This document shows, piece after piece, positions 34,805-35,268 of a DNA stretch of 64,000 nucleotides (position 1 is its first letter; each line of letters begins with the position of its first letter). The stretch is from Woeseiaceae bacterium. GTDB lineage: Bacteria > Pseudomonadota > Gammaproteobacteria > Steroidobacterales > Woeseiaceae. Where the stretch lies: positions 62,001 to 126,000 of the forward strand of contig JAJFKS010000028.1 in assembly GCA_021773115.1 (NCBI GenBank), given 5' to 3'. The position numbers and the translations under genes were made by a program. Below the pieces are notes generated by a model, which was not told where the DNA came from, did not search any database, and saw nothing but the letters and a program-made list of their open reading frames with translations.

Positions 34805-34833
34805 TTGACAAGTATTACTTTGCTTTCCACTAT
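34805..34833 (+). promoter_or_regulatory. Probable promoter of the tRNA-Ser locus
   Basis: A perfect TTGACA at 34805-34810 lies 17 bp before CACTAT (3 of 6, keeping A2, A5 and T6 of the -10 box). Transcription would start about 34840, 12 bp before the interrupted tRNA-Ser copy. It would therefore include that copy as a leader of the intact tRNA-Ser. No better promoter was seen between the two copies. Confidence 0.45.
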
Positions 34834-34873
34834 CCCTAGCCCAAGACCAATGGAGAGGTGCCAGAGTGGTCGA

Positions 34874-34939
34874 CAAAATCGCTGGGAGCGATTTTGAACC
34901 GCGAAGCGGCCCGAAGGGCGGCGGGCAGGAAGCCCGCCG
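34874..34939 (+). repeat. Hairpin array, insert 1 (D-loop)
   Basis: Four successive perfect hairpins: a 10-bp stem CAAAATCGCT/AGCGATTTTG with loop GGG (34874-34896); CCGC-GAA-GCGG (34899-34909); CCC-GAA-GGG (34910-34918); and an 8-bp stem CGGCGGGC/GCCCGCCG with a 5-nt loop (34919-34939). Confidence 0.85.
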
Positions 34940-34957
34940 TTAATGGGCCTGATTCGA

Positions 34958-35032
34958 CAAAACGGCTTTGCCGTTTTGGACGCACGCAGTGCGCACCCGC
35001 AGGGCATAAACCCGAAGGGTGAGGAGCGAAGC
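34958..35032 (+). repeat. Hairpin array, insert 2 (anticodon loop)
   Basis: Successive perfect hairpins: a 9-bp stem CAAAACGGC/GCCGTTTTG with loop TTT (34958-34978); CGCAC-GCA-GTGCG (34981-34993); CCC-GCA-GGG (34996-35004); CCC-GAA-GGG (35011-35019); and GCGAAGC (35026-35032). It opens with CAAAA like insert 1. Confidence 0.85.
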
Positions 35033-35054
35033 GACGAATCAAATCAGGTGTACT

Positions 35055-35088
35055 GGCGTCTGCAAGACGCCTTTGCGAACGAAGCAAA
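35055..35088 (+). repeat. Hairpin array, insert 3 (variable arm)
   Basis: A 7-bp stem GGCGTCT/AGACGCC with loop GCA (35055-35071) is followed by a 5-bp stem TTTGC/GCAAA with a 7-nt loop (35072-35088). It lies immediately before the intact tRNA-Ser. Confidence 0.8.
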
Positions 35089-35091
35089 TAT

Positions 35092-35181
<90 letters not shown>

Positions 35182-35268
35182 CTCGTGACCAAAAACATAA
35201 TATTTTAAGAAAGTAAGTTCTTAATCATGATTCCTTCATTCAGCAAGCGACGAAAGAGGAAGCTATCC

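Follow-up and report, generated by a model that had tools for sequence, protein, structure and literature searches.

A tandem duplicate of the tRNA-Ser(CGA) gene, lying on the 5′ side of the intact gene in the genome of a Woeseiaceae bacterium (4.4 Mb in 39 contigs), is broken in its D-loop and its anticodon loop by chains of short hairpins that, judged by homology, come from the same stock as the tRNA-linked repeats (TLRs) of Escherichia coli. We are highly confident of this identity and of the insertion into a duplicate, taken together. To the complete explanation, in which the copy carries hairpins of TLR stock, is transcribed as a leader and probably binds CsrA, we assign a probability of about 0.6. 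The copy occupies positions 34852-35091 of the 64,000-nt stretch of DNA that was analysed (hereafter, the window; Table 1).

Architecture of the locus

The copy retains three pieces of the tRNA in gene order, each of which matches the intact gene at 100% identity by repeat search (24 nt at 34850 and 35090, 16 nt at 34942 and 35113, and 13 nt at 35041 and 35128), as an initial annotation of the locus had described. That annotation also placed inserts in the D-loop and directly after the anticodon, and we located these at GTCGA^A and, directly 3′ of the anticodon CGA, at TTCGA^A (the caret marks the insertion point). Each shares one A with its target, so that 0 or 1 bp is duplicated. The T-arm and the acceptor 3′ strand are missing from the window copy, as stated there, and two further statements hold in part: the third insert is correctly positioned in the variable arm but replaces everything 3′ of the variable-arm 5′ strand rather than being inserted, and hairpin loops of 3 nt, given as the rule throughout, are found in some hairpins but not in others (AGGAA has 5 nt and the loop of the last hairpin 7 nt).

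The copy begins 18 nt after a promoter-like block. A TTGACA block with equal spacing is found just 5′ of tRNA-Ser(CGA) in relatives that have no copy (for example, L022, L023 and L029-L032, read by eye). A scan for consensus promoters did not report the block at 34805..34833, and we therefore infer the putative promoter from conservation. The minus strand of the window also contains a 120-aa open frame (34836-35198) antisense to the copy and the tRNA, which we take to resemble the spurious antisense-tRNA proteins of annotations.

Table 1 Features of the tRNA-Ser(CGA) locus, in window coordinates
Feature	Position	Strand	Basis and remarks
Putative tRNA promoter	34805..34833	+	TTGACA 34805-34810, 17 nt, CACTAT 34828-34833; read from the sequence
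Copy piece 1: tRNA-Ser 5′ acceptor strand and 5′ part of D-arm to GGTCGA	34852..34873	+	100% identical to 35092-35113
D-loop insert, 69 nt (type A element): four hairpins, last loop CAGGA	34874..34942	+	Fold, repeat search
Copy piece 2: 3′ part of D-arm and anticodon arm through anticodon CGA	34943..34957	+	Repeat search
Anticodon-loop insert, 84 nt (type B element), 3′ end GAGGAGCGAAGCGACGAATCA	34958..35041	+	Sequence, repeat search
Copy piece 3: anticodon stem 3′ strand to GTGTAC	35042..35053	+	Repeat search
38 nt: hairpin GGCGTCT-GCA-AGACGCC, second small hairpin, spacer up to the intact gene	35054..35091	+	Sequence, fold
Intact tRNA-Ser(CGA)	35092..35181	+	ARAGORN; Rfam tRNA 59.5 bits

Relation to the tRNA-linked repeats of E. 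coli

Between the anticodon-loop insert and the tyrT-tyrV repeat of E. coli K-12, 29/29 nt are identical (E = 1.5e-12), and between the D-loop insert and the rrnB-type T1-T2 spacer, which encodes the RrB sRNA, 30/32 nt are identical (E = 1.1e-9); on the opposite strand, neither insert has a match in E. coli. When the whole 240-nt region was compared with E. coli genomes, 3,918 of 5,426 matched at a lax threshold of E 10, with E-values of 2e-8 to 8e-7 for the best 20 places. At E. coli tyrT, AAGGTTCGA precedes the chain and ATCCTTCCCCCACCACCA follows it, which places it in the T-loop of a partial tRNA copy. In the rrn operon its place is inside a copy of the 5S 3′ end, and in the three matches inspected the element starts 73-82 bp after the 5S gene. 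These known sequences (TLRs, RtT RNA and RrA/RrB/RrF; PMC8144298), which we regard as relatives on the strength of the matches, were missed by the initial annotation.

According to the passages of PMC8144298 that deal with them, E. coli has 22 TLRs at ten loci, defined by 18-19 bp that repeat the 3′ end of the preceding gene. The same passages date them to 1978 and give no known function for them before the 2021 paper on RrA/RrB/RrF itself, and the search described there found homologs of these RNAs in at least 31 species, all Enterobacteriales (PMC8144298). The 18-19 bp identity can be attributed to a break of the T-loop at TTCGA^A, since such a break leaves a 3′ piece of this kind. Like a TLR, the window element sits in the setting of a stable-RNA operon, between the conserved promoter-like block and tRNA-Ser(CGA), and has a body homologous to E. 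coli TLR bodies. The window copy has no 18-19 bp identity to the 3′ end of an upstream RNA gene and is therefore not a TLR in the strict sense; that repeat is present or nearly so at other loci of the genus (for example, L039, L040 and L053, by eye).

Rfam searching, proposed in the initial annotation, recovered the intact tRNA gene, but the other scores stayed below cut-off: rsmX reached 25.5 bits in the window (cut-off, 56) and RtT (RF00391) 15.9 bits in the window and 21.4 bits elsewhere in the genome (cut-off, 45). Of 15 loci tried, only E. coli tyrT itself attained the RtT cut-off.

The E. coli TLRs, including those of tyrT/tyrV with the RtT/RttR RNA (RF00391), share with the window a hairpin-chain body that is broken at a tRNA loop. 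They lie downstream and carry the 3′ end of an RNA gene, whereas the window copy is found upstream, comprises 5′ parts and has its breaks in the D- and anticodon loops. RrA/RrB/RrF, located between T1 and T2 of E. coli rrn operons, resemble the D-loop insert in the order of hairpins and in their GGA loops, and in both cases the element interrupts a stable-RNA fragment. Their host is 5S rRNA, downstream and between two terminators, in contrast to an upstream tRNA-Ser copy; binding to CsrA and Hfq was tested for RrA/RrB/RrF in experiments described in PMC8144298. We consider the window locus a variant of the TLR kind, 5′-sided and loop-inserted, whose arrangement differs from that of the E. coli family. 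Searches of the open-access PMC literature yielded no description of an upstream copy whose D- and anticodon loops are interrupted. REP/BIME, BOX, Rickettsia palindromic elements and the small dispersed repeats of cyanobacteria are likewise short, hairpin-forming and multi-copy and have no gene of their own; we liken them to the window family by description, and strand-biased placement at tRNA loops is not known for any of them.

Partial direct tRNA repeats that flank a short unit could also be the att sites of a remnant attachment site of the tyrosine-integrase type. We consider this very improbable, as no integrase-sized DNA lies between the repeats (only the 69- and 84-nt inserts and the 38 nt) and the inserts are homologous across different tRNAs and to E. 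coli TLRs.

Recurrence in the genome, genus and order

A second copy of the same design precedes tRNA-Ser(GGA) on another contig of the genome (L006 241-650; G000:C9:314540-314950). It closely matches its own gene and carries D-loop and anticodon-loop inserts homologous to those of the window, with a third insert in the T-loop. In addition, a type B chain lies 3′ of tRNA-Gln in the same genome, beside an inverted piece of a tRNA end (by eye). Because these two loci repeat the theme, the copies do not represent one accident, and assembly error, raised in the initial annotation as a possible source, is unlikely because the architecture is repeated at another tRNA-Ser on a second contig and in other genomes.

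Classification by eye of 30 tRNA-Ser(CGA) loci from the genus revealed an upstream copy with an anticodon-loop insert at 9, remnants, a chimera or a D-loop insert alone at 5, and no copy at 16. Together with two from a second retrieval, 11 distinct anticodon-loop inserts were obtained from 11 genomes of the genus, that of the window included. D-loop inserts were also found in copies of tRNA-Ser(GGA) (L039-L042) and tRNA-Ser(GCT) (L043 and L045, and L050 in another family of the order), and an anticodon-loop copy was found in another family of the order (L264). The last came from a search of 396 genomes of the order with the pattern TGAYTCGACAAAWCGGC at 2 mismatches, which proved too loose: the reversed control matched often, and only this one of 20 inspected loci was genuine. 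Non-recurrence with random differences between strains, which the initial annotation had named as evidence against its reading, was not the outcome, as the inserts recur in the same genome, in the genus and in another family.

Copies are patchily distributed. The sister of the window's genome in a tree of a neighbouring gene (L023) has no copy, and its promoter-like block lies directly 5′ of the gene. This tree is based on a gene that appears mltF-like by eye and had matches in 27 of 31 loci, with the 23 rows of at least 120 aa used. On it, copy presence requires at least 6 changes for 7 carriers, compared with a mean of 6.2 for shuffled labels, indicating no extra clustering. Such patchiness argues against an essential function. 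It also bears on the idea of a structured leader that aids tRNA processing or acts as a decoy of tRNA enzymes, without CsrA, which we judge improbable. Such a leader would suit a copy that is located between the promoter-like block and the gene, that has gene-identical tRNA pieces and that closes, in relatives, with a hairpin and an A/T-rich spacer at its 3′ end (by eye), but few tRNA enzymes should bind a copy with interrupted D- and anticodon loops and no T-arm or acceptor 3′ strand, and more than half of the inspected congeneric loci (16/30, by eye) do without one.

Several further arrangements were observed at these loci. Downstream of an intact tRNA-Ser, L039, L040, L041 and L053 have 3′ tRNA fragments that bear hairpin chains in or close to the T-loop (by eye). 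A terminator-like hairpin usually separates the tRNA from the fragment, and in some cases a second fragment follows; this is the TLR arrangement outside E. coli. Two of these regions (L040 584-672 and L053 205-296) scored 27.9 and 26.4 bits against Aggregatibacter sRNA 22 (RF02902), below its cut-off of 39.8; RF02902 is possibly another relative of TLRs. The csrA gene lies just 5′ of tRNA-Ser(GCT) or of its copy at L043, L045, L050 and G000:C35 (L283), as seen by eye and, for L283, by Pfam. At the first three it adjoins a D-loop-interrupted copy, L043 being at a contig end with the intact gene out of view.

Folding and covariation of the stems

The region folds far more stably than shuffled sequences, both as RNA (34840-35190; z = -5.9, with 0/100 shuffles as low) and as DNA (34852-35091; z = -7.0, 0/200). 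For the hairpin that follows GTGTAC, 13 homologous sequences gave 95.5% standard cells, both sides had changed in 4 of 7 pairs, and the covariation score was matched by 0/500 shuffles and by no slid version. Across the 11 anticodon-loop inserts, 94 of the 95 pairs of the first hairpin were standard (hand registration). Pairing is also seen between the insert end, CGARTCA, and the anticodon stem, TGAYTCG, and the two change together (5 C-G, 4 T-A and 1 T-G among 10 hand-registered rows, a gapped row excluded; Fisher P = 0.024). These tests are inflated by related rows, and the controls correct for relatedness only in part. The alignments demonstrate that paired changes maintain the stems of the hairpin elements. 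Such behaviour would be expected of a structured RNA and equally of single-stranded DNA, and it supports the structured RNA suggested in the initial annotation.

Random decay of a pseudogene or an assembly artefact would account for an incomplete copy, but not for covarying stems or for an architecture shared by 11 genomes of the genus and by a second tRNA of the same genome, and we give these explanations next to no weight. A more serious competitor is a selfish, non-autonomous palindromic element without function that targets GA^A, in many cases TTCGA^A, within spare tRNA copies, and whose stems would stay paired if the mobile unit must fold as single-stranded DNA or if the arms template each other in replication. 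Several loops are GNA triloops, which are very stable in DNA, and these and the strong DNA fold, as well as the patchy presence of the copy, speak for such an element. We nevertheless consider it unlikely on the evidence of placement and loop sequence given below.

Distribution and placement of the type A element

Scanning named genomes with an exact pattern revealed the type A element in Microbulbifer, Rheinheimera, Dyella, Klebsiella, Arenicella, Kangiella, Ectothiorhodospira and others among the matches listed. The scan loci, at least 120 in number, held 134 pattern matches, of which 94 distinct copies were kept and 40 were set aside because they continued differently, were cut off or were duplicates. 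We also used a covariance model (R1) of 30 type A sequences, including that of the window and one from E. coli; its short calibration makes the E-values rough. At E ≤ 0.01 the model detected the element in 60 of the 73 genus genomes; at E ≤ 0.001, it did so in 165 of 369 genomes sampled from the class, spread over 127 of 271 sampled genera. The D-loop insert of the window, itself one of the building sequences, scored 76.8 bits (E = 6.3e-18).

Placement is strongly biased by strand. Among the matches listed, an intact tRNA on the same strand lies within 350 nt of 46/94 copies, compared with 415/9720 random positions, whereas one on the opposite strand lies within that distance of only 1/94, a difference that simple selfishness leaves unexplained. 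The other 48/94 have no same-strand tRNA within that distance, and 22/94 are near the edge of their locus. In the same set, a T-loop-type motif (TTCGA, GTTCA or TTTGA) forms the left flank of 46/94 copies, compared with 42/9720 random positions, and the element is preceded by A in 90/94 and by GA in 63/94. A subset of 66 copies from 80 of the 120 scan loci gave similar figures (same-strand tRNA, 33/66; opposite strand, 0/66; motif, 32/66). Automatic detection of the T-arm, at 14/66, was too strict as a measure of placement because the left T-stem has often decayed, and it was replaced by tRNA distance and the left-flank motif.

The site (T)TCGA^A is present in the D-, anticodon and T-loops of tRNA-Ser(CGA), with inserts at A^A, and the inserts of the window copy are found in loops because these loops contain the site preferred elsewhere. 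The initial annotation was right about the loop placement, for which this is a simpler cause than the loop recognition it proposed. General loop targeting is not claimed. Outside tRNAs, junction-spanning pairs in a 56-nt fold gave P = 0.93 for 47 other sites, a measure without discrimination, as 23 T-loop sites fail it too (P = 0.99). With a stricter measure at 30 hand-chosen non-tRNA sites, an apical stem of at least 6 bp was found at 6/30 compared with 3.5% of random sites, for an overall P of 0.26; of these six sites, L262 pairs with the element's own end and L123 and L149 share a similar flanking repeat. Both tests drew on 80 of the 120 scan loci. What stands of the palindromic mobile element suggested in the initial annotation is a dispersed family that prefers the neighbourhood of tRNAs and T-loop motifs, without its general targeting of loops.

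As is characteristic of mobile elements, the same sequence occurs at unrelated sites, and its breadth across genera and its presence at non-tRNA sites, including larger multi-copy repeats in two genomes (G231 and G355), favour the selfish element. No mobilising enzyme was found among Y1 transposases, which, as counted from tables, occur in 42/60 genus genomes with the element and in 6/13 without and so show no clear association. Few plasmid (14/72,556) and phage (3/50,697) records match, with several of the 12 plasmid records listed being of chromosome or small-vector size and the phages being named as Salmonella.

The scan brought up other settings as well. One of the multi-copy repeats (L250-L261; G355:C2) is ~190 bp long with TTAAC...GTTAA ends and was observed in 12 near-identical copies, with type A in mid-repeat. 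Type A also lies inside IS91-like transposase genes at L049, L051 and L080 (by eye), seemingly placed after GGA, TCGA or CTCA. In Bradyrhizobium (L096, L097, L099, L100, L106, L115, L118, L122, L124 and L154), a short hairpin, CAAAATTGC..GCAATTTTG, within a palindromic repeat (GTCATTGCGAGGAG...) matches the search pattern without the rest of the element.

GGA loops and CsrA

As in CsrA-binding sRNAs, GGA is found in hairpin loops of the type A element. The last loop of the window element is CAGGA, and its first hairpin has a GGA that is partly paired in the predicted fold. Among the matches listed, 68/94 copies (50/66 in the earlier subset) bear GGA in the loop of the hairpin that a script selected as the last, a count that is rough either way because the script picks an inner or flanking hairpin in some negative rows; simple selfishness leaves this feature, too, unexplained. 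The first loop was left out as evidence because the scan pattern fixed GA in it, and a last-loop GGA was among the grounds for selecting the 30 sequences of model R1. The last-loop GGA often occurs as CA(N)GGA, a form similar to the CsrA consensus. GGA loops are not a consistent feature of the type B insert. A csrA gene is encoded in the window's genome (92.8 bits; cut-off, 27).

In the binding experiments reported in PMC8144298, RrB bound CsrA in vitro (apparent KD near 100 nM), and no shift with CsrA was seen for a mutant in which three GGA motifs had been changed. Given the GGA hairpin loops of the D-loop element and its homology to RrB, the leader probably binds CsrA as well. Deletion and overexpression of RrB in E. 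coli had modest effects in the experiments described there (PMC8144298), so CsrA binding may not matter. Among possible functions, we tentatively favour a CsrA-binding leader that would report stable-RNA transcription to the CsrA network, while giving it somewhat less than an even chance.

A model for the locus and its implications

In the explanation we prefer, tRNA-Ser(CGA) has been duplicated in tandem and its promoter-proximal copy now carries hairpin chains of the E. coli TLR stock, as the sequence shows, with the elements seated at A^A of (T)TCGA^A sites in the tRNA loops. Lying between the promoter-like block and the intact gene, the copy should be transcribed as a structured leader, which RNase P would release by its cut at the 5′ end of the intact tRNA. 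The tRNA pieces are probably kept identical to the gene by conversion between the direct repeats. A clean loss of the copy would follow from recombination between these repeats, in keeping with the patchy distribution of the copy. The released leader, by probably binding CsrA, would tie stable-RNA transcription to the CsrA network.

These observations place TLR bodies beyond Enterobacteriales, at a defined point in tRNA loops and also in front of a tRNA gene. They make movement into single-stranded or transcribed tRNA loops directly testable, together with a link of growth-rate-dependent promoters to CsrA. More broadly, although we regard it as doubtful, a strand-specific, loop-inserting hairpin family may have colonised the stable-RNA genes of Gammaproteobacteria, its CsrA-binding loops coupling tRNA and rRNA promoters to CsrA titration. 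If true, the colonising family would count among its fixed members the TLRs of E. coli as well as the rrnB T1-T2 spacer present in many vectors, and the window would show its 5′-leader form, released by RNase P.
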